Part shown: in pieces, positions 2,810-15,634 of the stretch
Position numbering within the stretch: position 1 is the stretch's first letter
How the letters are laid out: every line of letters starts with the position of its first letter
From: Candidatus Hydrogenedentota bacterium
GTDB taxonomy: Bacteria > Hydrogenedentota > Hydrogenedentia > Hydrogenedentales > CAITNO01
Assembly (NCBI GenBank): GCA_012523015.1
Contig: JAAYJI010000140.1
Span: 1-33,692 of the forward strand
Direction of reading: 5' to 3'
Length of the DNA stretch: 33,692 bases
The notes under the pieces: generated by a model
Seen by the model: only the letters and a program-made list of their open reading frames with translations
What the model was told of the DNA's origin: nothing
The model's database searches: none
Made by a program: the position numbers and the translations under genes

Positions 2810-3466
2810 ATAAAAACTTTTTTTAAAGGGATTCTACTCGTACTTGCGCTTATCGCCGTTTTTCTCGCAGGCCCTGTCTTCTATTATTTTCCCTGCTACA
2901 ACTTTCGCGTGGTAAGTCCGGGTTCTTTTTACGGGTCACGCCAAATGGGCGGCTCTGCACTGGAATCTACCATCAACAAATATGGCATCGGTACAGTCTT
3001 TAATTTGCGCGGCGCTCATCCGGGAGAGGCATGGTATGACGCGGAAGCGGCGGCCTGTGAACGTACAGGCGCGACGTTGGTAAATCTGGGATGGTCCAAA
3101 AGCAGTTTGCCTGATCCCGCCTCGTTGATGGAATTTGTAGAAACCATTGAATCCGGCAAAGGCGCTTTCTTGGCGCACTGTTCCGGCGGCACCCACCGGA
3201 CCGGTGTCGCTTCAGCCGTATTTTTATTGCTTCAAGGCGAGGATGTGCCGACGGCGCGCAAACAATTCCGACTCGGATTCAATGATGCGCCCATCGGTAA
3301 ATTACTAGACCTTTACGAAAAAAATGATCTCGCCTTCCGTCAATGGGTTGAAGAAATATATCCCAATGAATATGAAACGCTGAAAGCCCGAGACAAAGCC
3401 ATGCTGCCTTTGCAAAGCGCGCCAGAAGAAGCGCTGCAGTTGGCTTTGAATACAGCCTCTTTTTAA
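2810..3466 (+). CDS. Membrane-anchored tyrosine/dual-specificity protein phosphatase
   Basis: The C-x5-R phosphatase loop is clear as HCSGGTHRTG, with Cys124 and Arg130 when counted from 2810, and a candidate general-acid Asp in the SLPDP segment. The fold region resembles the small DSP/cyclin-dependent-kinase-inhibitor-like phosphatases of bacteria. The first usable standard start is GTG at 2909, but the frame stays open upstream and encodes KTFFKGILLVLALIAVFLAG, an ideal basic-plus-hydrophobic anchor, immediately preceded by ATA at 2810 and a purine-rich ribosome-site candidate 8-9 bases earlier. I therefore place the start at 2810, giving 218 residues. Starting at GTG 2909 would give 185 residues, remove the anchor and begin within the conserved SPGSFYGSRQ segment. 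Substrate could be a phosphoprotein, lipid or nucleotide; unknown. It stands alone. Confidence 0.72.
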   Translation: MKTFFKGILLVLALIAVFLAGPVFYYFPCYNFRVVSPGSFYGSRQMGGSALESTINKYGIGTVFNLRGAHPGEAWYDAEAAACERTGATLVNLGWSKSSLPDPASLMEFVETIESGKGAFLAHCSGGTHRTGVASAVFLLLQGEDVPTARKQFRLGFNDAPIGKLLDLYEKNDLAFRQWVEEIYPNEYETLKARDKAMLPLQSAPEEALQLALNTASF

Positions 3467-3842
3467 CGGTCCTCCCCAAAACTCCGCCCTTCACGGTGCC
3501 CCCTCAGATTCTTGAAGGATTCCGTCTCTTTGTAGGGTTCTAAGGCGACGCGCACAAGGCCATCCCAAAGTATCCGCATGGGTAGGGTAGGTGTCAAAAC
3601 GCCGCGCCACCGTTATTTCTTGACACGAAGTCATTTTTCATTACAAAAATGAATAAATATCCGTCTGTATCGTCTTATCCAGTGTAGGGCAGTATAAAAT
3701 GCGCTTATGGTCGTTGTTCATGGCGTTGTCGGTTTTCTGTCCGGTTCATAGATACACCGGCTGCATTGAAGATTTTCATTCAAATCAAGCAGCTTTGTGA
3801 AGGCGGTAAAATGGTGTATTATATGGGCAAAGAGGGAACCCT
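3467..3842. other. 376-bp intergenic region before the sigma operon
   Basis: No gene is convincingly present. A 38-codon ATG ORF on the minus strand (3463-3579) overlaps the phosphatase stop and has no clear ribosome site; it may be a decayed remnant. A TTGACA at 3620-3625 is followed 16 bases later by TACAAA, a possible promoter far upstream of the sigma gene. TCATTTTT/AAAAATGA (3631-3638/3645-3652) forms a small A/T hairpin overlapping it. Confidence 0.4.
3795..3822 (+). promoter_or_regulatory. Candidate promoter for the ECF sigma operon
   Basis: TTGTGA (3795-3800) and TATTAT (3817-3822) are separated by 16 bases and lie just upstream of the sigma start at 3843, with GAGGG at 3832-3836 as ribosome site. 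Match to the housekeeping consensus is partial; an ECF-type autoregulated promoter could not be recognised by eye. Confidence 0.3.
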
Positions 3843-4433
3843 ATGCCGACCACACAAAGCGCAATCACAGTTGAAGACAATGAACTTGTCGCCCAAGCAC
3901 GCAAAGGCGATATGAAAGCTTTTGAAGCCCTTGTCCGCAAGTACCGCAATGACGTGTATGCGCTGTGCTATTACTTTACACGGAACCGCGAAGATGCGTG
4001 GGACTTGTCTCAGGAAGTTTTCATTAAGGCCCATCGCGGTCTGAGCAAGTTTCGCGGTGATGCGGCATTCAAGACGTGGTTGTTGCGAATCGCTGCGAAT
4101 CAAAGCAAAGATCACCTAAAAAAACGGCGCATACAGACCACGCCTTATGAAGACAGTTGGCGTGTTGGGGAAGTGGAAACTGATCACAACCCCCGTTCAG
4201 CCATAGAAGCCAAGGAATTGGGCAAGGCCATTGATGCCGCAGTCAGTCAGCTTCCGATCAAGCAGCGCACCGCCTTTATTTTGCGTGAATATGACGGACT
4301 TTCCTATCAGGAAATGGCCGAGGTCATGGAATGCAGTATCGGCACCGTAATGAGCCGTTTATTCCACGCGCGACAACGTCTACAGCAACTATTGAGTCCC
4401 ATGGGGCTTTGGGAGAATGATACAAATGTTTAA
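3843..4433 (+). CDS. ECF-family RNA polymerase sigma factor (sigma-70 group 4)
   Basis: Protein of 196 residues, the usual ECF length, with only sigma regions 2 and 4. Region 2 spans about 14-95: the core-binding segment includes DLSQEVFIKAHRGL, followed by FRGDAAFKTWLLRIAANQ, which forms the -10 recognition helix area. Region 4 spans about 133-184 with LPIKQRTAFILREYDGLSY and the helix-turn-helix EVMECSIGTVMSRLFHARQR that reads the -35 element. It directs RNA polymerase to a small regulon, normally in response to an envelope signal relayed by an anti-sigma factor. The next gene starts inside its 3' end, so the two are translationally coupled and the downstream protein is the likely partner. 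Family certain; regulon unknown, but the co-transcribed GH5 gene is an obvious candidate member. Confidence 0.93.
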   Translation: MPTTQSAITVEDNELVAQARKGDMKAFEALVRKYRNDVYALCYYFTRNREDAWDLSQEVFIKAHRGLSKFRGDAAFKTWLLRIAANQSKDHLKKRRIQTTPYEDSWRVGEVETDHNPRSAIEAKELGKAIDAAVSQLPIKQRTAFILREYDGLSYQEMAEVMECSIGTVMSRLFHARQRLQQLLSPMGLWENDTNV

Positions 4434-4878
4434 AAAGAAAAAGAAAATGTTAATCGCGGCACAGTTCGACAATGTGCCTCATGATAAAAACGCCGATCCG
4501 ACGAAGCAGCAGGATGCCCCCCGATCCTCTTACGAAACCATGCTGTCCCGATTACGAGAAGGCGCCGCCGCCCATGTGGCGGATACGCCTGTCATCAGCG
4601 ATGGGCAATTTGGTCTTTTCATGGAAGGCATCCACGAGGGTATTCATGAAAGGACACCAAAGGTTTCAGGCTTATGGGCCATGGCGTCCTTCGCCACGGT
4701 GACGCTTCTGATCCTCCTTTCCTTGCTAGCCTTTTTCGCAGGCGGCCCCGATCCTGTCCGCGCCACCGAAATCGAATCAGTATCCACGGAATTGCAAGGT
4801 GTCACGATCAACTTCTATGAAAATGCACAGGGCCTGTCCACGGTGAAGGTCACCATGCCGGAGAATGGCTTGTGGTAA
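4417..4878 (+). CDS. Single-span membrane protein, putative anti-sigma factor
   Basis: Up to 153 residues. The first ATG (4417) lies only one base after GGGAG (4411-4415); the in-frame ATG at 4426 has ten bases of spacing and is the better start. Either way the gene overlaps the sigma gene (stop 4431-4433). The N-terminal 85 residues are hydrophilic and begin with a poly-Lys patch; one transmembrane helix follows at about 86-108, and about 45 residues lie outside. That topology and position match a membrane anti-sigma factor. However, no HxxxCxxC zinc motif of classical ZAS-type anti-sigmas is present, so the assignment rests on context. The extracytoplasmic tail (ESVSTELQGVTINFYENAQG) looks like a small beta hairpin and could sense or bind a partner. 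Its stop overlaps the next start. Confidence 0.7.
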   Translation: MIQMFKKKKKMLIAAQFDNVPHDKNADPTKQQDAPRSSYETMLSRLREGAAAHVADTPVISDGQFGLFMEGIHEGIHERTPKVSGLWAMASFATVTLLILLSLLAFFAGGPDPVRATEIESVSTELQGVTINFYENAQGLSTVKVTMPENGLW

Positions 4879-5336
4879 GGCTTCGCGCTATTTTTCTCTT
4901 CTCATTACTGCTGAGTTGTGCCGCCCTTGCCGATAACGCCCTTTCGCTGCGCTGTCAAGTGGTGCAAGCAACAACTGAAGAGCACAGTACCCCTTATTTT
5001 GACGCAAAAGCAAAGGCTATAAAACATTTACTTGACGATCTCCCCTTCAACACCTTTCGAACCCTCAAGGAGTCTGAGGAGAAGGTGGATGAAAATCTGC
5101 AGACAAAGGTCGCCTTAAATCCGCGCTATACCATGACCATGCTCACTTCCGGCACAGACAGCACAGGACGTATCCGGCTTATTGTACGCGTAAACTTACT
5201 GCCCAAAGAGCCCGACAAATCTGAACAACAAGTGCTTGAAACAACCTTGCTGCTTGCTCCCGGCGGTAAAGCACGGGTCTGTGGATTGCGTTGTGAAAAA
5301 GAAAGTGAGCTCATTGTCGTTTTGACGCGCATTTAA
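4872..5336 (+). CDS. Small exported protein of the sigma operon, unknown function
   Basis: Protein of 154 residues starting at GTG 4872, which overlaps the stop of the preceding gene (4876-4878) and has GGAG at 4860-4863, eight bases upstream. A signal peptide is clear: MVRLRAIFLFSLLLSCAALA, cleavage probably near residue 20. The mature part begins with a helical KAKAIKHLLDDLPFNTFRTL segment and continues as mostly beta strands, ending in a strand pair with Cys137/Cys140-like spacing (VCGLRCEKESELIVVLTRI). I recognise no named family. Translational coupling to the putative anti-sigma factor suggests a periplasmic co-sensor or modulator of that pathway; this is inference from context only. Confidence 0.68.
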   Translation: MVRLRAIFLFSLLLSCAALADNALSLRCQVVQATTEEHSTPYFDAKAKAIKHLLDDLPFNTFRTLKESEEKVDENLQTKVALNPRYTMTMLTSGTDSTGRIRLIVRVNLLPKEPDKSEQQVLETTLLLAPGGKARVCGLRCEKESELIVVLTRI

Positions 5337-5370
5337 GGAACCCACCACGCCAACCACAGGGAGTGCCGCC

Positions 5371-6987
5371 ATGACTGTCCGGGTATACAGCATTTTATCG
5401 ATTTTTGTCTATGCGGCGCTGAGCCCATTCATTCATGCCTCCGAAACAATCACGCTGCCTCTGATTCGCGTGGAGGAAGGCAGGCTCCAAGACGACGACG
5501 GGGGACATTATTTTCTACGAGGCATCAATCAAGGCAGGAAGTCGCCGAGGAACCTACACCGAAGCTGGCAACAGCCGGAAGACTACCACAACCTGCGCCG
5601 TTGGGGTATGAATGCCCTTCGCATGATGATGTTCTGGTCCGCGTTGGAACCGGAACCCGGCGAATACAATGAAGCCTATTTGCAGGTCTTAGACGAGCAA
5701 ATCGATTGGGCACGGGATGCAGGGCTCTATGTGATTCTGGACATGCACCAAGATCTGTGGGGATACAGCATCCCGGGCGGCAACGGCGCGCCCCAATGGG
5801 CAACTTTAGATGACGGACAAGCCCATCAGACCTTGGGATCCGTGTGGAGCACCGCCTATTATGTGAGCCCACAGATCCAACACGCCTTTGATAACTTTTG
5901 GAAGAATACCAAGGGACCGGGCGATATCGGTATTCAAGATCGCTACGCCGCTGCATGGCGTCACGTAGCAGCGCGCTACGCCGACCGCACGGAAGTCATC
6001 GGTTTCGACCTCATGAACGAAGCTTTTCCGGGATCCATGGTTCAAGAATCGGCAGCGGCGCTGCTGGAACTCGTCCCCAAGCTCCTTGACACGGCATCAC
6101 TGCCCGCCAGCCTCCCCGAAATTCTCGACAGTATCGACGCCAACACCATGCCGCCATGGCTCCTTGAGGCGCTCGATAATACGGAAACCTACCGGATGAT
6201 TTTAGACGCGCTCCACCCAATGACGGCACGTTTCGAAACGGACTATTTGATGCCCATGTACGAGCGGGTACATCGCGCCATTCGCGAAGTGAACAAGACC
6301 GGTATATTCTTTTTGGAACCCTGTGTGCTCGCCAATATTGGCGTTGCCACCGCCATCACGGCGCTGAAAGATTCGGAGGGCGTCCGCGATCCGCTGCAGG
6401 CTTATATGCCCCATGCCTACGATATTGTCACAGACACGCCCTTCTCCCACCAACCCAGTGAAAAACGCCTGCAGATCATTGTCCAACAAAAACGCCTGGA
6501 TGCGGCGCGCTTGGAAATGCCGCTACTCATCGGTGAATGGGGAGCCTATTATCGCTCCGATAAAACGCAGGATGCAGCGCGGATGATGAACCGCCTTCTC
6601 GAAGAAGCACAGGTATGCGGCGCCTTCTATTGGGAATATCACCGGGCTTTGGATACAGCCGTTTATTTCGAAGTCTTGAGTAAAGCGGCTCCTCTCCGTG
6701 TGGCAGGCATTTTGGAGACAGCCCGTTTCAACGCCGAGGAAGGGCTCTTTTCCTGTCAATGGAAAAACATTCCGGGCACGGGCGTTAGCGTTTTTTCATT
6801 GCCCCCCGCTTGGCAGCAAAAAACGCTTGACATCACTGTGTCACCTCCCGAACTGCAGGGGGAAATAAAAGCGAACCCCCGTTGGCAGGATACACCACAG
6901 CTGGTTGTAGACGCTTCGGATAGCCCTGTGACGGCAAGCCTTGAAGTACGGCTGACCACGCCGGTGGAACGAGCAGTAAGCCCCTAA
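5371..6987 (+). CDS. Exported GH5 glycoside hydrolase, endoglycoceramidase-like
   Basis: Protein of 538 residues with a signal peptide (about 1-23). The (beta/alpha)8 barrel of glycoside hydrolase family 5 runs from about 30 to 430. Visible signatures are LRGINQGRKSP at the barrel start, VILDMHQDLWGYSIPGGNGAPQW (113-143 region), acid/base Glu217 in GFDLMNEAFPG, and nucleophile Glu389 in LLIGEWGAYY. The DMHQDLW and NEAFPG pattern, plus a C-terminal beta-sandwich of about 90 residues, resembles endoglycoceramidases and related glycolipid-cleaving GH5 members more than cellulases. It should cleave a beta-glycosidic bond outside the cytoplasm; substrate unproven. GGGAG at 5359-5363 sets the ATG. 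It is 34 bp behind the small exported gene, so it likely belongs to the sigma operon, and ends 14 bp from the convergent methyltransferase gene. Confidence 0.82.
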   Translation: MTVRVYSILSIFVYAALSPFIHASETITLPLIRVEEGRLQDDDGGHYFLRGINQGRKSPRNLHRSWQQPEDYHNLRRWGMNALRMMMFWSALEPEPGEYNEAYLQVLDEQIDWARDAGLYVILDMHQDLWGYSIPGGNGAPQWATLDDGQAHQTLGSVWSTAYYVSPQIQHAFDNFWKNTKGPGDIGIQDRYAAAWRHVAARYADRTEVIGFDLMNEAFPGSMVQESAAALLELVPKLLDTASLPASLPEILDSIDANTMPPWLLEALDNTETYRMILDALHPMTARFETDYLMPMYERVHRAIREVNKTGIFFLEPCVLANIGVATAITALKDSEGVRDPLQAYMPHAYDIVTDTPFSHQPSEKRLQIIVQQKRLDAARLEMPLLIGEWGAYYRSDKTQDAARMMNRLLEEAQVCGAFYWEYHRALDTAVYFEVLSKAAPLRVAGILETARFNAEEGLFSCQWKNIPGTGVSVFSLPPAWQQKTLDITVSPPELQGEIKANPRWQDTPQLVVDASDSPVTASLEVRLTTPVERAVSP

Positions 6988-7001: not shown

Positions 7002-7643
7002 TTAGATACCCGGCGAAAAGAAAAGGGCGGTATCATCTTTGTTATGGGTGTCGGCCCCTATATTTTTTCCGTCCTCATCAGTGGTCGGCTTCGCTTTTTT
7101 CCGCCATTCGTCCAGAATATGGTAGACAACGATCCCGAAAGCGGTAGCCACATTAATACTCTTTTTGTAGCCGAACATGGGGATCTGAACCACAGCGCTG
7201 CAACGACGCAAGACTCGGGCATTCACCCCATTTTCTTCATTACCGAAAACGACCGCTACGGGACTGGGCCAGCAGAAATCACGATAATCGGGCGCGCCCT
7301 CCACCGTCTCTACTGCCACTACGGGAATGCCCTGTTCCTCCAGCACATCCAGACAATCCCGATTCCGCTCATAGTAGCTCCACGGCACATAATCAAATGC
7401 GCCCAAGGCCGTCTTCTCCAGTTTCTTGTGGGGAGGGTGGGCGGTCATACCGCAAAGATGCAAATGGGTGACGGCACAGGCGTCCGCCGTTCTAAAGATG
7501 CTTCCCACGTTGAAGGCACTGCGCAGATTGTCCAGCATGACGTGTATAGGCGCGCGCGCCAAGGCTATGCGCTCCTCGTCGGGCACCCCTGCATACCATG
7601 GTTCACGATTCACCAATGTATGATAATGTTGCTCTTGAACCAT
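7002..7643 (-). CDS. SpoU/TrmH-family RNA 2'-O-methyltransferase
   Basis: Protein of 213 residues. The three SPOUT motifs are present: motif 1 NLRSAFNVGSIFRTADA (39-55) with the catalytic Arg, motif 2 AVVFGNEENGV (130-140), and motif 3 IPMFGYKKSINVATAFGIVVY (154-174) with the conserved Asn of the S-adenosylmethionine knot. It transfers a methyl group from SAM to a ribose 2'-OH of tRNA or rRNA; which RNA cannot be told. It lacks the extra N-terminal substrate-binding domain of RlmB-type enzymes and has a hydrophilic tail of about 30 residues. Its ATG overlaps the stop of the upstream gene as TAATG, so it is translationally coupled to an unrelated-looking exported protein. Confidence 0.88.
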   Translation of the reverse strand: MVQEQHYHTLVNREPWYAGVPDEERIALARAPIHVMLDNLRSAFNVGSIFRTADACAVTHLHLCGMTAHPPHKKLEKTALGAFDYVPWSYYERNRDCLDVLEEQGIPVVAVETVEGAPDYRDFCWPSPVAVVFGNEENGVNARVLRRCSAVVQIPMFGYKKSINVATAFGIVVYHILDEWRKKAKPTTDEDGKNIGADTHNKDDTALFFSPGI

Positions 7644-9091
7644 TAGTCAATTCTAAGTACGGCGCTCATCTCTTCAGTCTGCGCTTTTATTTCCGCCTTG
7701 TACTCAAGCTGCAGCATGGTTTTGAGTATTTCTTTGTCCAGCCCTTCCGAGTAATCTGTGATGACCCTTTCCAAATCCTTGGCGAAACCTGTGCCGCTGA
7801 AACGCTGCGTATCGGTCAAAAGACTTTGCTGCAACTCATTGATCCGTGACTGTACTTCACGGAGCCCACGCATCCGATGTTGAGCCTCTGAAGGGAATTC
7901 ATCGCCAATAACGCGGTAGGCGTCTTCTGATTGTTTGAGCAAAGCCACGGCTTCGGCAAAATGATTTCTTGCCGCCTCTTCTTCAGCCAGACTTTTCAAA
8001 TCATCAGCTTGCCGTAATTGCTCTTGATATTGCGCCAACTGCTCATCCCGTTTTTGTATGAGTGCCGCCACTTCCAAGCGCCGCTTTTCCGCCGAAGGAT
8101 GCAGCATATTCACAGACAAGGCTTTTGCAAAGCCGCCAAGGGCTTCTTCAAGCATACCTTTTTGGAGTTTATCTTCTGCCGATTCATAATAATAATTGGC
8201 TATCTTTGCCACAACATCCCGACGTTCCGGCGAACTCGCGACAGCCTGTTCATATTCCCAGACGGCCCGTTCGCGAAAACCTGCCTCATAGAGCATATCC
8301 CCAATTTTCGCGTACATGTCGGCAGTGAAAGACGTCAATTTTTGGTAGTTCGTATCTGCCGCATCCAGTTCATTTTCTTTTCCCCGTTCCACATAAAAGG
8401 CATAGGCATTCAGTACATACCGTTCTAACTGTGCTGTTGAAATGGAGCTTTGAACCGTTGTCGAGGTAATGACAGACCACCACACATCCGCCACCGCATT
8501 CACAGAACGGCTAATATCTGTTATGCTCCTTGCAGCAGCGCCCCCGCGAAAACCGGAACCGCTTTTGTACTCGCTTTCAAGCAAATCATTGGCTTTGTTA
8601 GCCTCCAAAACACTGCGCTCTAAAGGTTCCATTGATTCGAGGGTACGACGTGATTCGGGCTTCAAATTTCCCGCATCAGCCAAGGACTCGGCATCACGGT
8701 AATATTGTGTGCGTATGGCGGGATCGCCTGTTGCCATGGGCGCCGTAACACGGCTGACCAATTTACCGAGGACCCCCAATCGCCATGCAAAATAAGCATC
8801 AATACGCGCGCCCCGCGTCGTACTCAATAGCGCCATTTCATTTTCGATTGCATGGATCGGGTCAGCGTTCATATCGGGAAATAAGGTTTCCATCTCAACA
8901 GGCGACAAAGCTGCGCCGGCACGGACTTCTTCTTGCAGCCTTGTCAAGGGCAAGTTTTTTTCTCGTGAAAGGAGGTGCAGCGCCGTGTTCACGACCGTCG
9001 ACTCTACACGAGGTCCCCAAGCCTGAGCCGACAGCGTACAACCGACTACTGCCACGACAAGAAGCATATGAAAATAAAAACGATTATTCAT
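7643..9091 (-). CDS. Exported helical-repeat (TPR-like) protein, unknown function
   Basis: Protein of 482 residues. The signal peptide MNNRFYFHMLLVVAVVGCTL plus SAQA gives cleavage after about residue 24, so the mature protein would start with WGPRVE. The middle (about 270-345) carries tetratricopeptide-like helices: MYAKIGDMLYEAGFRERAVWEYEQAV and KLQKGMLEEALGGFAKALSV-type segments. The C-terminal third (350-430) is charged and coiled-coil-like. N-terminal about 150 residues are helical without a recognised domain. It lies 26 bp behind the zinc-ribbon/TPR gene and overlaps the methyltransferase start by one base. Probably a periplasmic scaffold working with the neighbouring TPR membrane protein; function unknown. 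Confidence 0.72.
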   Translation of the reverse strand: MNNRFYFHMLLVVAVVGCTLSAQAWGPRVESTVVNTALHLLSREKNLPLTRLQEEVRAGAALSPVEMETLFPDMNADPIHAIENEMALLSTTRGARIDAYFAWRLGVLGKLVSRVTAPMATGDPAIRTQYYRDAESLADAGNLKPESRRTLESMEPLERSVLEANKANDLLESEYKSGSGFRGGAAARSITDISRSVNAVADVWWSVITSTTVQSSISTAQLERYVLNAYAFYVERGKENELDAADTNYQKLTSFTADMYAKIGDMLYEAGFRERAVWEYEQAVASSPERRDVVAKIANYYYESAEDKLQKGMLEEALGGFAKALSVNMLHPSAEKRRLEVAALIQKRDEQLAQYQEQLRQADDLKSLAEEEAARNHFAEAVALLKQSEDAYRVIGDEFPSEAQHRMRGLREVQSRINELQQSLLTDTQRFSGTGFAKDLERVITDYSEGLDKEILKTMLQLEYKAEIKAQTEEMSAVLRID

Positions 9092-9117
9092 GGAACAGTT
9101 TCCTTGTTTCTTCAGGG

Positions 9118-10665
9118 CTACTGCCTGGATTGACGGATTTGCGAGACCAGCACCTCAATCTCATTCAAACGCAGCTTTTGCGGATCCTCTTTCGCCAAGT
9201 CAAGATAATATTCCAGCTCTTGCAGTCCCGCTTCGGTGGAACCGCGATTGATCAACAGCAAGCCCAGCTCCAGCCGTGCCGCAGGATAATCAGCATGCAT
9301 GGATATGGCACGGCGATAGGCTTGTTCCGCTTGGTTGGTATCATGCTGCAGTGCAAAGATACGCCCTTGAATCGTTGCTTGGCGCGCCGTGTTCAAGCCG
9401 GATTCGCTTGCTTGCCGTGCCATGGCCGCGGCGCGGTCTAAGACATCTTTGTCCATGTAGGCAATCGCCATTTGCAGGGCAGCTGCGCCTGCAAATTCAC
9501 TTTTACCGTTGGAGATGGGTTCCAATGCCGCCAAGGCTTCGTCGACCAATTTGTTTTCCTGAAGGCACAGTGCATGAAAAAAACTTGCGCGCACATCGTC
9601 GGGCAATAATTTTTTGGCATCTGTCAATAAGCTCAGCGCCTTGCCGTTTTCACCTTGTTTCATTTCCAATAGGCCGGCATTTAATTTGACCAATCCCTCC
9701 AGATCATCGGGCAGTTCGGTTACCGATTCCAACAAGGGCAGCGCCTGTGCTTCTTCATCACGCATTAAAGAAGCGACGGCACGCACGACGGTCGCCCGCA
9801 TGTTTTCCGGATGATCCGCCAAGACTTTGTCCAACTCGGATACTGCCGCATCAGGCGCATCATCCAACAGCATGGACAGGCCCGGAAGGGATGGGGCAAC
9901 AGGAGCGCCCATGATCTGCGCCAAGCGTACGCGCTCACGAAATTCCTTATATTCTTCTTCGACGCCGCGAAGCAAGGCAAGCAACTTCAACAGTTCCGCG
10001 TCCCCTGAATACCGTTCTTGAACCGCCAGCTCCAGCAACGCGCTGAGACGTGCTCTGTCTGTGGTCTTCTGATCGCGTTCAGCAGCGAGGACGGCAAGAA
10101 TCAAGGCGTCCCGTTCACGGGCGCCGTGCTGCCTTGCCACGGCCTCAAAAGTCTCTGATGCGCGCCCAAACTGATTCGCATTCCAACAGATGACGCCCAA
10201 GAGGAACTGGGCTTCTTCATCTTTCGGCGCATTATGGATATGGCTTTGCAATAATTCGATGGCGTCTCCGTAATCACCGGAAGCCGCAACACGGCGCGCC
10301 TCTCCAACAGGATCTTGAAGCATAAAGAAGGCAAAGAAAGCCAATCCCGCCAGAATGAGCAGTACCAAGACGCCTAAAACAGCATAGCCGAAAATGCGAT
10401 TGAAATTGGCCCTGACTTTTTTATCGTCCTGTTTATCCTGTTGTTCTATTTTTTGGCCGGTCAGCAGATTCGTTCCGCACTTCACACAAACGATGTCTCC
10501 GGAACCCACAGCAGCGCCGCAGGCGGGACAGTGTGAACTGCTTGAAGTTCCCGTATCAGCGGCGGGTACGGCCCGGTTTTTAAGCGGTCCTCCGCAATGG
10601 ATGCAGTCGTCTGACGAGGCATCCGCCAGACCGCCGCAGAAAGGACACTTGATCATTTTTGCCAC
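9118..10665 (-). CDS. Zinc-ribbon, single-span membrane protein with TPR repeats
   Basis: Protein of 515 residues with a clear three-part plan. Two zinc ribbons lie in the cytoplasmic N-terminus: C7-x2-C10...C21-x2-C24 and C46-x2-C49...C60-x2-C63. A transmembrane helix follows at about 91-114 (FGYAVLGVLVLLILAGLAFF). The remaining 400 residues are tandem TPR-type helix pairs, for example GDYGDAIELLQSHIHNAPKD, ASETFEAVARQHG, DEALAALEPISNGK and AEQAYRRAISMHADYPAARL. TPR arrays bind proteins, so this may organise an envelope complex, with the ribbons reading something in the cytoplasm. No enzymatic motif. It sits 78 bp behind the microprotein, which carries a similar ribbon, and 26 bp ahead of the exported repeat protein. 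Confidence 0.8.
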   Translation of the reverse strand: MAKMIKCPFCGGLADASSDDCIHCGGPLKNRAVPAADTGTSSSSHCPACGAAVGSGDIVCVKCGTNLLTGQKIEQQDKQDDKKVRANFNRIFGYAVLGVLVLLILAGLAFFAFFMLQDPVGEARRVAASGDYGDAIELLQSHIHNAPKDEEAQFLLGVICWNANQFGRASETFEAVARQHGARERDALILAVLAAERDQKTTDRARLSALLELAVQERYSGDAELLKLLALLRGVEEEYKEFRERVRLAQIMGAPVAPSLPGLSMLLDDAPDAAVSELDKVLADHPENMRATVVRAVASLMRDEEAQALPLLESVTELPDDLEGLVKLNAGLLEMKQGENGKALSLLTDAKKLLPDDVRASFFHALCLQENKLVDEALAALEPISNGKSEFAGAAALQMAIAYMDKDVLDRAAAMARQASESGLNTARQATIQGRIFALQHDTNQAEQAYRRAISMHADYPAARLELGLLLINRGSTEAGLQELEYYLDLAKEDPQKLRLNEIEVLVSQIRQSRQ

Positions 10666-10743
10666 GATAAAATCCCTTCTTGTGTTTTCAATCAGTCTTC
10701 CAGCTTCAACGTGTTACAACCCGTTTCCGTTGGGAAGCAGGCA

Positions 10744-10917
10744 TCATAAATCTAAGTCATCGGGCAAATAGCTGCCACAATGGGAGCATTCTTCTTTGGC
10801 GACCCACGTGCGGCGGCCGCAATGAGGGCATTTGGGCCAAAACAGAGACGGAATACTCAGTCCTGCAATAGCTACTACAAGGGTACTCATAATTACCAAA
10901 TAGGGTATATGAATCAT
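10744..10917 (-). CDS. 57-residue membrane zinc-ribbon microprotein
   Basis: A small gene below usual length cut-offs. From ATG at 10915-10917 the protein is 57 residues: a hydrophobic span at about 4-26 (IPYLVIMSTLVVAIAGLSI...), then one zinc ribbon C30-x2-C33...C44-x2-C47, ending PDDLDL. GGAAG on the minus strand at 10925-10929 lies seven bases before the ATG. A second in-frame ATG at 10890 would give 48 residues and cut the helix, so the longer form is preferred. A TATAAT on the same strand (10968-10973) lies upstream, without a good -35. The ribbon resembles those of the next gene, 78 bp downstream, suggesting that the two proteins share a partner or form a complex. Function unknown. Confidence 0.7.
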   Translation of the reverse strand: MIHIPYLVIMSTLVVAIAGLSIPSLFWPKCPHCGRRTWVAKEECSHCGSYLPDDLDL

Positions 10918-10977
10918 GGAAAAACTTCCAATGGCACTATCGAACTTTCCGTCAGTTGTCCTAAATGATTATACCTG

Positions 10978-11010
10978 AAAACAAAAGCAAAGCATGAGTG
11001 CTTGTTTTCT
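10978..11010 (-). terminator. Imperfect hairpin after the three-span membrane protein gene
   Basis: GAAAAC plus AAGCA on the left pair with TGCTT plus GTTTTC on the right across a short bulge. On the minus strand it lies 13 bp past the stop of the 11023-11544 gene. The T-rich arm is part of the stem and no separate T run follows, so termination is only possible. Confidence 0.3.
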
Positions 11011-11022
11011 CTTTTCCGTCCG

Positions 11023-11544
11023 CTATCTTTTGAACAGATCTTTAGCAGACGAATTGAGTCCTGTGTATTTGCGCGGTACTCCCCAATCATCATCGTCGAC
11101 GGTACTTTTCGTCTTCGGTTGTTCCTGGTAAAAGCGGGACTTATGTTTGTATTGCGGCTTCAAAGGACGCAAACGGTGAACGAGCGCAAGTATAACAATG
11201 AATAGAACAAGCTCAAGCCATATGATCCAATTGGGATCGTATTCCTCCCATTCCCAAAACCGAAGAAGCGGTGTTGTCCAATATACATGATCTGTCTCAT
11301 CATGGATAATCCGCATGGACGACGTACTTTTGAACCAAGCAGACACTTTTACCAACACAAAGATAAAAACGTGCATCACATAGCTTAAAACAACAATCTG
11401 AAGCAAAAACACCAAGGCAGGCACAGAATAACGGCGTGTAAAATAAAATATGACCCCCAGTAAAAGCGCGCCAACAATCAGTAGAACGGCATTTTCTTTC
11501 AGAAAAGGTAAAATCGGCTGAAAGAGTTCTGCATAAAATTCCAT
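11023..11544 (-). CDS. Three-span membrane protein, unknown function
   Basis: From ATG 11544 the protein is 173 residues. The frame is open further to a TTG at 11604, but the ATG has GGAG seven bases upstream, and the extra 20 codons cover a TATAAT-like sequence (about 11589-11594) that may be the promoter. Three hydrophobic helices are visible: about 18-35 (AVLLIVGALLLGVIFYF), 41-67 (PALVFLLQIVVLSYVMHVFIF) and 105-123 (WIIWLELVLFIVILALV), followed by a charged cytoplasmic tail ending SAKDLFKR. The loop between helices two and three is rich in Trp, Asp and Glu. No family recognised. It heads the minus-strand cluster; the microprotein follows after 105 bp. Confidence 0.7.
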   Translation of the reverse strand: MEFYAELFQPILPFLKENAVLLIVGALLLGVIFYFTRRYSVPALVFLLQIVVLSYVMHVFIFVLVKVSAWFKSTSSMRIIHDETDHVYWTTPLLRFWEWEEYDPNWIIWLELVLFIVILALVHRLRPLKPQYKHKSRFYQEQPKTKSTVDDDDWGVPRKYTGLNSSAKDLFKR

Positions 11545-11716: not shown

Positions 11717-13066
11717 ATGCGCATTTTAAAACGGATCATCGTCATTAGTTTAGGAGTACTACTGCTTCTTGGTATCGGCGCATATGTATGGCTCCATCCC
11801 GGCCGCGGTCCCCGTGAAGAAATTGATCCAAACGCCAACGGTTGGGCAGAAGAGGTGGACGGCGCTATGGTGCTGCATCTCAAAGGAACACCCTACGAAA
11901 TGGGCTATCAACGGGGTTACCTCGCCAAAGAAAAGGTTCGGCTTACCATGGATCTTTTCGACGGTTTGCTGAAACAGGCAGAACAGGAAGTGGGGCTGCC
12001 CCGATTCGCCTCCAATCTGATCCTTGATATTACCTACGCCCTATGCGCGCCTTACATTCCGGAAAGCTACAAACGAGAAATGGAAGGGCTTGCCGACGGA
12101 AGCGGCTGCGATCTCAGGATCTTTAGACGGGGACATGTCTTGTCCGTGATTACTGAACGTGGCTGCAGCGCCTTCGCTGTTTGGGGTAAAGCAACAACAG
12201 ACGGCGCTCTCTATCACGGCCGTAATTTTGACTGGATCACTTCTGCCGGGCTGGAAGACACCGCCTTGCTTTGTTTATATGAACCTGAAGGATTGAAAGC
12301 CTTCGCATCCGTGGGCTACGCAGGATTAATCGGTGTTTACAGCGGCATGAATATGGAAGGCATATCGATTAGCCAGATTGGCGCCGTCACCAAAGATAAA
12401 TCGCTGCGCGGGCTGCCCCTCGAATTAATTTTACGCAGGATACTGGAAGAATGCGGCAATATTGACGAAGTGCGGGCACTCATGAATCAGGTTAAACACA
12501 CGGTAGGCTTCAATTATGTGGTTGCCGACGGTGACGCCAAAACAGCGCGCGCCTTTGAAACTACGGCCCATCATGTGGCGGAATTCGGGCCCAACGACCC
12601 CAAAGAAACCGTGGAATATGCCAAGCCCATGGAAGACGCCGTTTATCGTTCAGACGAGGCAATGGATCCCGTGGTCCGCAGTCTGCAAGACTGCGCCAAT
12701 GCGCCGCAATTGCCCTATGGCTCCAATTCCTATGATCACCGTTACATGGGCATCGTCAACGGTATCACTGAAAATTACGGGAACATCGATCAAGCCATTG
12801 CTTTAGAAATCTTGAAAGCAACGGCCATGAAAAACGCGAATCTCCACGGCGTCCTTGCCAATTCAACTACCCGTGAATTATGGGTAGCCCATGCGAAGAA
12901 TGGTCAAAACGCCTCCCTGCAGCCTTACATTCATTTCGACCTGAAACGGCTCTTTTTGAAACCTGAAGAAAGACCCGCCCTTGAAGCGGAACCGGCGGAG
13001 GAGGTGGAGCCGCCCGTTGAAGTTGAAGCGGCTGCTGAACCCGAAACCCCTGAAACAACGCCCTGA
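11717..13066 (+). CDS. Membrane-anchored peptidase C45 / acyl-CoA:6-APA acyltransferase-like hydrolase
   Basis: Protein of 449 residues with an N-terminal anchor at about 6-26. The family pattern is evident: GTPYEMGYQRGYLAKE (57-72), then Cys150 in RGCSAFAVWGKATTDG, which is the expected Ntn-hydrolase nucleophile, then YHGRNFDW (166-173), and VGYAGLIGVYSGMNMEGISIS. Relatives include penicillin isopenicillin-N acyltransferase and many uncharacterised amidases/acyltransferases; in some the Cys is exposed by autocleavage. Here it would act on an amide or acyl donor outside the cytoplasm. The C-terminal 35 residues are a Pro/Glu/Val-rich, low-complexity tail. AAAGGAG at about 11701-11707 sets the start. 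Monocistronic by spacing. Confidence 0.83.
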   Translation: MRILKRIIVISLGVLLLLGIGAYVWLHPGRGPREEIDPNANGWAEEVDGAMVLHLKGTPYEMGYQRGYLAKEKVRLTMDLFDGLLKQAEQEVGLPRFASNLILDITYALCAPYIPESYKREMEGLADGSGCDLRIFRRGHVLSVITERGCSAFAVWGKATTDGALYHGRNFDWITSAGLEDTALLCLYEPEGLKAFASVGYAGLIGVYSGMNMEGISISQIGAVTKDKSLRGLPLELILRRILEECGNIDEVRALMNQVKHTVGFNYVVADGDAKTARAFETTAHHVAEFGPNDPKETVEYAKPMEDAVYRSDEAMDPVVRSLQDCANAPQLPYGSNSYDHRYMGIVNGITENYGNIDQAIALEILKATAMKNANLHGVLANSTTRELWVAHAKNGQNASLQPYIHFDLKRLFLKPEERPALEAEPAEEVEPPVEVEAAAEPETPETTP

Positions 13067-13256: not shown

Positions 13257-13367
13257 GTGCGTGAAGGGAGTCCATCCAATTTGATCCGCTTGGTTTATGC
13301 CGATAGCAGACCTATTATTTGCAATGACCAACTCGACACGGCAGATAAGGAGAGCGTTCGCACGTGA
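13257..13367 (+). CDS. 36-codon leader ORF overlapping the transglycosylase start
   Basis: From GTG 13257 the frame reads MREGSPSNLIRLVYADSRPI and ends at TGA 13365-13367, which overlaps the GTG start of the next gene (13364) as GTGA. GGAG at 13242-13245 is a plausible ribosome site eleven bases upstream. The exact stop/start overlap and the promoters upstream argue for translation, perhaps as a coupling leader. No homology recognised, and a chance ORF of this size is possible. Confidence 0.33.
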   Translation: MREGSPSNLIRLVYADSRPIICNDQLDTADKESVRT

Positions 13368-15634
13368 AAACCGTAGCCACTTTACCTGAAGCATGTCGCC
13401 GATTCATTTCGTCTTACATTACATACAATTCGGTGATCCTTTTTGTCACAGTTATTTTCCTAATCACCGGTTGCGCCAATCAGTCCTATGACCAAGGTCA
13501 TATACGTCCCTCCGTTCGTATAGATCATGCCCCCGTCGATACGGACGCCGACCGAGTTGTCGACGTGAACGCTTTGCTCAACGAAGCAGAAGCAGAACTT
13601 CAAAAAGCTAATGCCGCCCACGAACAAGGTAATTTTGACGCTGCCCAAGCCCATTACCAACGGGTACTGAAACTGCTTTTAGATGCCAACCTGGATCCTG
13701 CTCTTTTCTATGAATCCAACGGACAGCTTGAAGCAATCTTGAAGATGTACTTGAAACATGCCCACCTTTACCATCATCCTGAGGGGCGTCTCGGTTCTTC
13801 CAAAACAGGGGTCTACAACGACATTGCCATTAGTCTGCCCCTGCCTAAATATGTAGAAGCAGAAATTGCCGAGCTGCGGGAACGCTATCCCGGTACCTTT
13901 CAGCGGGGACTCGATCGCAGCGCACGCTATATGCCTTATATAAGAGAATACTTCCGCTCCCAAGGCTTGCCCGAAGATCTAGCGTGGCTCGCCATGGTTG
14001 AAAGCATGTTTCGTCCTGATGCCGTTTCTCCTGCAGGCGCAGGCGGTATGTGGCAGTTCATGCGCGCCACGGGACGGCGCTTCTCGCTGCGAATGGACAG
14101 TTACGTAGATGAACGGAAAAACTGGCGCAGTTCAACCCAAGCGGCGGCAGAATATCTGAAGTGTTTGTACAATTTCTTTGATGGTGATTGGTCGCTTGCT
14201 GTAACAGCATACAATATGGGTGAAGGCGGCTTATCACGGGCGATGGAAGCCAATGGCGGCGACCGCAATTTTTGGAATCTTATTGAGACGCCTCCTGCTT
14301 CCGAGCGCATTAAACAAGAATCGAAAAAGTATTATCCCCGTCTGCTCGCCTATATCGTGGTTGCCAACGCGCCGGAAAGATACGGATTTAACCGCCCGGA
14401 CAGTACCATCGAAAGCATAGATTTTGTGCCCGTAAATGGACGCTACAACTTGGCGGAACTGGATAAGACCTTAGGATTAAACGCAGGGACCCTGTCGGAG
14501 CTTAATCCCGATCTGATCCAAAAAGCGACACCCCCTCAAGGGGAATATATGATGGCTGTACCGCTAAGCCATCGAGAACAATTGTTGGCTGCCCTCAAAA
14601 CGACGAAGCCCGTTCAGTATGCGGCGCCCGTGGAAAAGGCACCTGCATCAGCGCCTCAAAAAGGCGGCGTACACAGAGTGCGCAAAGGCGAAACGATTTC
14701 CAGCATCGCACGCACTTATGGCGTGTCGGAACAGCAGCTCATGCAAGCCAATCGGATTCGTAACGCCAGACAGCTGCAGGCGAATCAATCGCTCCATATC
14801 CCCGGCGTCGTATCGACCAGCAAAGATCCCGCCCTTGCTCTAGCTCAAGAAAAAGCCTCCACCGTGACCGTCAAAGAGTCTGCCGCTTCGACCTATACCG
14901 TAAAAACAGGGGATACCTTGTCTGCCATAGCCTGCAGTCATAAAACCTCGGTAACGGCGCTGACAAAACTGAACAACCTCAAAGAAGGCGATTGTATCCG
15001 TGTCGGCCAGGTGCTTAATCTCGGCACAGCAGCCGCGCCCGCACAAGAATCTGCCCCGCGCTACCATGAAGTCAAATCCGGTGAATATCCCAGCGTCATC
15101 GCCAAACTCTACGGCGTTTCCACCCCTGATCTGCTCCGCTGGAATAATCTCACACCCCAATCCGTGATTCGCGCAGGTGATCGTCTGGTCATCGGCGGTC
15201 CCGGCGGGAAAGCCGCTTCGACAACCGCTGTCGCCGAACAAAATAATACACCGAGCAAAGCACAAAAAGCTGAAGTGAAGACCCATAAAATTGCGCCGGG
15301 TGAAACCGCCTCCGCCATTGCGGCCCGTTATGGCGTTAAAACGGCGAACCTCCTCGCTGCCAATGATCTCACCGCCAAATCTATATTGATCGTTGGACAC
15401 ACATTGACAATCCCACAGGCGCAGCAAGGTATCAGCACCCGTGACCAATCGAAGGACATCCAGCTCTCCAAGGCATCACAAAAGAAAACGGTGCACACCG
15501 TCACGGCGGGACAAAACCCCACCTCCATCGCACAACGTTATGGCGTTAAAGTCAAAGATTTGTTTGAATGGAACAACTGGCCGGATGCGCCCGTCCTGCG
15601 TGTAGGTGATAAGGTCTCCATTTACCAAGATTGA
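13364..15634 (+). CDS. MltD-like membrane-bound lytic transglycosylase with five LysM repeats
   Basis: Protein of 756 residues from GTG 13364, with AAGGAG at about 13347-13352. A long hydrophobic signal ends in lipobox LITGC (Cys37), so it is probably an outer- or inner-membrane lipoprotein. Residues 75-110 contain a TPR-like helix pair. The SLT/transglycosylase domain (about 185-320) has the catalytic Glu213 in WLAMVESMFRPDAVSPAGAGG and the AVTAYNMGEGG motif; it cleaves the MurNAc-GlcNAc bond of peptidoglycan forming 1,6-anhydro-muramyl ends. Five LysM peptidoglycan-binding repeats follow at about 435-480, 505-548, 563-608, 638-684 and 710-755, separated by Ala/Thr/Ser-rich linkers. E. coli MltD has the same order with two LysM repeats, so this one is unusually long. 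Confidence 0.9.
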   Translation: MKTVATLPEACRRFISSYITYNSVILFVTVIFLITGCANQSYDQGHIRPSVRIDHAPVDTDADRVVDVNALLNEAEAELQKANAAHEQGNFDAAQAHYQRVLKLLLDANLDPALFYESNGQLEAILKMYLKHAHLYHHPEGRLGSSKTGVYNDIAISLPLPKYVEAEIAELRERYPGTFQRGLDRSARYMPYIREYFRSQGLPEDLAWLAMVESMFRPDAVSPAGAGGMWQFMRATGRRFSLRMDSYVDERKNWRSSTQAAAEYLKCLYNFFDGDWSLAVTAYNMGEGGLSRAMEANGGDRNFWNLIETPPASERIKQESKKYYPRLLAYIVVANAPERYGFNRPDSTIESIDFVPVNGRYNLAELDKTLGLNAGTLSELNPDLIQKATPPQGEYMMAVPLSHREQLLAALKTTKPVQYAAPVEKAPASAPQKGGVHRVRKGETISSIARTYGVSEQQLMQANRIRNARQLQANQSLHIPGVVSTSKDPALALAQEKASTVTVKESAASTYTVKTGDTLSAIACSHKTSVTALTKLNNLKEGDCIRVGQVLNLGTAAAPAQESAPRYHEVKSGEYPSVIAKLYGVSTPDLLRWNNLTPQSVIRAGDRLVIGGPGGKAASTTAVAEQNNTPSKAQKAEVKTHKIAPGETASAIAARYGVKTANLLAANDLTAKSILIVGHTLTIPQAQQGISTRDQSKDIQLSKASQKKTVHTVTAGQNPTSIAQRYGVKVKDLFEWNNWPDAPVLRVGDKVSIYQD

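Follow-up and report, generated by a model that had tools for sequence, protein, structure and literature searches.

Three adjacent genes, designated B, C and D, form a unit that is conserved phylum-wide in the Hydrogenedentota. We consider it about an even chance (a probability near 0.5) that their products make up an inner-membrane-anchored periplasmic scaffold within the core gene set of this phylum. The genes were read from a 33,692-nucleotide stretch of DNA from a Candidatus Hydrogenedentota bacterium, the whole of which is referred to here as the window. No description of the B-C-D cluster was found in literature searches. A set of uncharacterised proteins that is kept in order across an uncultured phylum probably has a basic role in these bacteria. 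The analysis yields a defined three-gene target, together with a new exported domain family that has a paralogue in nearly every genome.

Layout of the locus

The cluster lies on the minus strand of the window, where the order of genes from 5′ to 3′ is A, B, C, D, E. Gene A (11023-11544) encodes 173 amino acids with hydropathy spans at residues 18-36, 47-65 and 107-125, and gene B (10744-10917) encodes 57 amino acids with a span at residues 4-22 that is followed by CPHCG...CSHCG. Gene C (9118-10665) begins with GTG and encodes 515 amino acids. The product of gene D (7643-9091) is 482 amino acids long and carries a signal peptide ending in ...AQA, immediately ahead of WGPR. Gene E (7002-7643) encodes a SpoU/TrmH-type RNA 2′-O-methyltransferase, and its product matches PF00588 (SpoU_methylase, 123.4 bits versus a cut-off of 29.7).

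A preliminary description of this DNA had placed four adjacent minus-strand genes at 7643-11544 with spacings of 26-105 bp. Open reading frames and translations agree with that layout, and the computed gaps (A-B, 105 bp; B-C, 78 bp; C-D, 26 bp) match the spacing given. Gene E was omitted from that set, although it is the closest-coupled neighbour of the cluster in the window genome, with a one-base overlap between its start and the D stop codon. Using Pfam, TPRs and a double zinc ribbon were identified in C and a zinc ribbon in B; searches with A or D singly returned no significant family. All scores of A through D against NCBIfam equivalogs were far under the cut-offs. Chance open reading frames are excluded for A through D by their phylum-wide conservation. 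A dedicated promoter for B was considered and rejected: TATAAT-like sequences are present upstream of both A and B, with poor −35 boxes, and the scan did not rise above shuffled sequences.

Several other genes of the window were also inspected. Beside A, on the plus strand, is a divergent gene for an AAT/C45-type acyltransferase-peptidase (11717-13066), which adjoins the cluster in several relatives too. Also divergent from the cluster is a gene for an MltD-like exported lytic transglycosylase with an SLT domain and several LysM domains (13364-15634, plus strand); it was rejected as a partner because the retrieved loci of relatives did not show it as a recurrent neighbour. The plus-strand region 2909-5336 has genes for a tyrosine-phosphatase-like protein and an ECF sigma factor, along with two small open reading frames that overlap each other (4417-4878 and 4872-5336). 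Neither of these small frames has a Pfam match, and they are possibly anti-sigma partners of the ECF sigma factor.

Conservation of gene content and order

Gene content was surveyed in 68 genomes of Hydrogenedentota. C was found in 65 of these and D in 66, and the window genome holds one true copy of C. At all 64 loci with both genes, D is located immediately 3′ of C on the same strand, the intergenic distance being −4 to 159 bp (median 16). The two genes overlap at 21 of the 64 loci, 19 times by 4 bases. Such overlap points to translational coupling and often marks a stoichiometric complex. At 52 loci B directly precedes C (median gap 68 bp). B is absent from some genera that keep C-D (g4, g6, G041, G061-063), so it is not strictly needed.

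The flanking genes behave differently. A was found in 56 of 68 genomes (36 of the 38 good ones) and adjoins B-C-D in most of family f1, in f2, f6, f7 and f9, and in one f8 genome, but it is unlinked and beside unrelated genes in f3, f4, f5 and f11, for which reason it was rejected as a core member. E is linked to the cluster in genera g1, g4 and g7 only, and the non-core flanking genes of the fetched loci recur in few loci. Since order and strand are kept for B-C-D while A and E are often unlinked, the conserved unit consists of these three genes, and neither A nor E is obligate in it. The preliminary description would have been refuted by neighbours not staying together in relatives; for B-C-D this refutation failed, as order and strand are the same throughout the phylum, but A does not belong to the core, being elsewhere in several families.

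Note that local arrangements vary. In genus g17, A is followed not by B-C-D but by a small gene and then one that resembles topoisomerase I. Genus g6 has a soluble zinc-ribbon protein of ∼175 amino acids upstream of C, replacing B (L091, ∼5335-5900; L096, ∼5390-5950); the family of this protein is phylum-wide and is located elsewhere in other genomes. Genomes G030 and G059 are without B, C, D and the D paralogue described below, yet keep A. These losses may be assembly gaps or joint loss, and their joint absence is not pressed as a functional link, since incomplete genomes are expected to give a case or two.

Proteins A, B and C

The architecture drawn in the preliminary description, with zinc ribbons, membrane spans, TPRs and an exported helical protein, is right as judged by Pfam, hydropathy, charge and AlphaFold predictions. 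In 40 aligned relatives of B, the four cysteines of the C4 zinc ribbon are invariant and the span motif YL..M.....SVPSLF is kept. A single span was identified in 50 of 50 relatives, and net charge on the side that bears the ribbon averages about +3.4. B is thus predicted to be bitopic, with its N terminus outside and its C-terminal ribbon in the cytoplasm. A conserved membrane microprotein of 57 residues is easily missed by automatic annotation. A is predicted to be N-out/C-in, with a conserved extracytoplasmic loop.

The eight cysteines of C, which form two N-terminal zinc ribbons, are all invariant in phylum-wide alignments. The AlphaFold model of C (pLDDT 89.9) consists of two small ribbons, a membrane helix at residues 91-116 and then TPR-like helix pairs, about 11-12 in number, that run to the C-terminal end. 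The nearest solved folds are TPR superhelices, namely O-GlcNAc transferase (OGT; TM-score 0.71 on the target), SPINDLY and consensus TPR. Of the two flanks of the span, the one with the ribbons is the more positively charged. The predicted topology has the ribbons in the cytoplasm and the TPR superhelix in the periplasm; for both B and C, the cytoplasmic placement of the ribbons is based on their invariant cysteines and on the positive-inside pattern. The most strongly conserved parts of C are the ribbons, with 2.8 and 3.2 bits per column versus 1.3 for the linker, and the last, membrane-distal repeat, TPR11. Such peaks are expected if both ends bind something.

Protein D and its relatives

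Protein D has a signal peptide, an all-helical N-terminal domain (W25 to ∼215), TPRs at ∼257-330 and a coiled coil at 334-431. Its AlphaFold model (pLDDT 86.5) has the helical N-terminal domain, the TPR block and long helices extending to residue 431. D had been described at the outset as an exported helical protein, which it appears to be, but it has TPRs as well: 34 of 42 relatives match Pfam TPR_2, and the model agrees. Among 60 full-length relatives, W25 is invariant directly after the predicted cleavage site (between AxA and WGP), and about a dozen further residues are nearly invariant. A fold search using the whole protein gave only TPR-type proteins among the matches listed; TPR matches swamp such a search. 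From its predicted signal peptide and these comparisons, the N-terminal domain of D is a putative exported domain that matches no described family in this analysis.

Nearly every genome has, at a separate locus, a second and longer member of the D family (∼540-610 amino acids), designated D2; an example is G000:C317:26762-28132 (L131). At the D2 loci that were viewed, D2 was never beside C, and neither C nor B was present. Because the D2 locus has neither, the D fold can work without C. In some genomes D2 follows a large predicted PlsC/PlsB-like acyltransferase gene.

To look outside the phylum, GTDB contigs were scanned for D using a single 10-residue pattern. Candidatus Abyssobacteria is the only lineage outside Hydrogenedentota that was clearly matched; two further matches (L167 and L171) are counted within the phylum of the window by genome search. 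As only one such pattern was used, absence from other phyla is weak evidence and the range may be wider. A contig scan using C alone as query gave no match. Abyssobacteria encode an exported protein of 626 amino acids (L199:5941-7821) in which a relative of the D N-terminal domain precedes an SLT transglycosylase domain. Matches (L199, L241, L242) were obtained in 3 of 3 genomes searched, and the fusion was read in two of these genomes. These relatives keep the WG.RAH start, and no relatives of A, B or C were found beside the fusion gene at the first locus. Fusion to SLT points to cell-wall work, a hint that comes from one other phylum and concerns the N-terminal domain alone.

Proposed function and alternatives

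In the scaffold to which we give roughly even odds, C would be anchored in the inner membrane, its two zinc ribbons lying on the cytoplasmic side and its TPR superhelix on the periplasmic side. B would most likely pair with C in the membrane, stabilising or tuning it. Exported D would use its TPRs or its coiled coil to dock on the superhelix of C. The N-terminal helical domain of D would then be presented in the periplasm, where its targets could be substrates or enzymes of the envelope or cell wall. From gene order, gene overlap and matching predicted topology, we infer mutual binding among B, C and D, and a physical B-C-D complex is plausible. The process served would be envelope or peptidoglycan assembly; here the link to the cell wall is by analogy with the Abyssobacteria fusion, which suggests cell-wall remodelling as the place to look.

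A more ambitious version of the scaffold has B and the ribbon-span-TPR protein relaying the state of the cytoplasm to exported D, whose new helical domain would control cell-wall enzymes, making the whole a signature envelope machine of Hydrogenedentota. We regard this version as a long shot. If it were true, the domain at its business end would be one that another phylum has fused directly to a cell-wall enzyme.

Of the alternatives, the one that fares best is still unlikely. It holds that the cluster is a YfgM-PpiD-like export accessory. On this view C would be a membrane-bound TPR protein that assists the Sec translocon, D would be a periplasmic chaperone that catches emerging proteins, and both B and C would contact the ribosome or SecA through their cytoplasmic ribbons. 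C shares with YfgM a predicted N-in topology with periplasmic TPRs, and exported D could fill the groove of the C superhelix. However, D is without a PPIase or chaperone domain and C gives no match to TPR_21, the YfgM family; moreover, the four TPRs of YfgM compare with about 11-12 in C, which has ribbons in addition.

Somewhat more doubtful is a transmembrane signal relay, the idea put forward in the preliminary description. Here C, through its tandem ribbons and with B, would bind a cytoplasmic regulator, a metal or nucleic acid that is controlled by the state of the periplasmic TPRs and D, or the reverse. This would suit the ribbons being the most conserved part of C, the strong conservation of its last TPR and the predicted location of the B and C ribbons on the same side of the membrane. 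Conservation of the ribbons is equally expected of a structural dock, however, and the rest of the cluster is without a sensor, kinase, protease or regulator.

A further reading, and one that we think improbable, takes D and D2 to be degenerate relatives of zinc-dependent phospholipase C or S1-P1-like enzymes, acting as pseudoenzymes that bind lipids or nucleotides. Many Hydrogenedentota have an exported PF00882 phospholipase-C-like family with an IGxRTHAEIG start and a HNIADIPWHF-type motif (L217-L231, L235). The invariant tryptophan after the predicted signal-peptide cut and the WG.RxH start kept in Abyssobacteria relatives would fit such an origin, and by eye the start region and YFAYRLGxLG of D resemble the IGxRTHAEIG and FFLGxLCHNIAD motifs of these same-phylum proteins. 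Profile comparison does not bear this out. Against 14 same-phylum PF00882 proteins, hhalign gave probabilities of 0.07-0.7%, below 1% and in the same range as control alignments, and a zinc phospholipase C origin of the D N-terminal domain was not supported. The zinc-ligand histidines are absent from D and D2 (one is kept in Abyssobacteria relatives), and the whole-protein fold search listed TPR-type matches only.

Lastly, adjacency of B, C and D might be ancestral synteny inherited across the phylum by genes of unrelated function, as all the genomes come from one phylum and A, though not obligate, is also found close by in many families. This is very improbable given that rearrangement has separated all other neighbours, A and E included, from the cluster in some families, while C-D is kept at 64 of 64 loci, with 21 of these pairs overlapping.

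Comparison with known systems

Several described families resemble C in part. MamA, PrsT and other TPR families have a generic TPR likeness to C and score far under their cut-offs (68.6 versus 200; 61.8 versus 312.2). TcaA-type proteins have an N-terminal zinc ribbon followed by a span, and C matches them weakly over ribbon and span (20.9 bits versus a cut-off of 550 for the TcaA NCBIfam equivalog); C differs in having two ribbons and an outside part made of TPRs. LapB/YciM combines one span, a TPR superhelix and a zinc/rubredoxin module (PMC8745692). In LapB, however, the span comes first and both the TPRs and the C-terminal rubredoxin are cytoplasmic, whereas the ribbons of C precede the span and its TPRs follow, on what are predicted to be opposite sides of the membrane. 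Against the LapB NCBIfam equivalog, C scored 27.4 bits versus a cut-off of 474.

YfgM, which acts with PpiD in E. coli, has a single N-terminal span in N-in orientation, and its TPR domain lies in the periplasm, where it binds a partner (PMC9643414). By hydropathy, charge and AlphaFold, C is predicted to have the same arrangement of N-in single span and periplasmic TPRs. No match of C to TPR_21 (PF09976) was obtained at E values up to 0.1. C differs from YfgM in its tandem cytoplasmic ribbons and its microprotein neighbour; the partners differ also, that of YfgM being a membrane-anchored PPIase-type protein whereas D has no PPIase domain. YfgM with PpiD is the nearest functional analogue and LapB the nearest domain set, and B-C-D would be of the membrane TPR scaffold kind, carrying an exported domain that matches no described family here.
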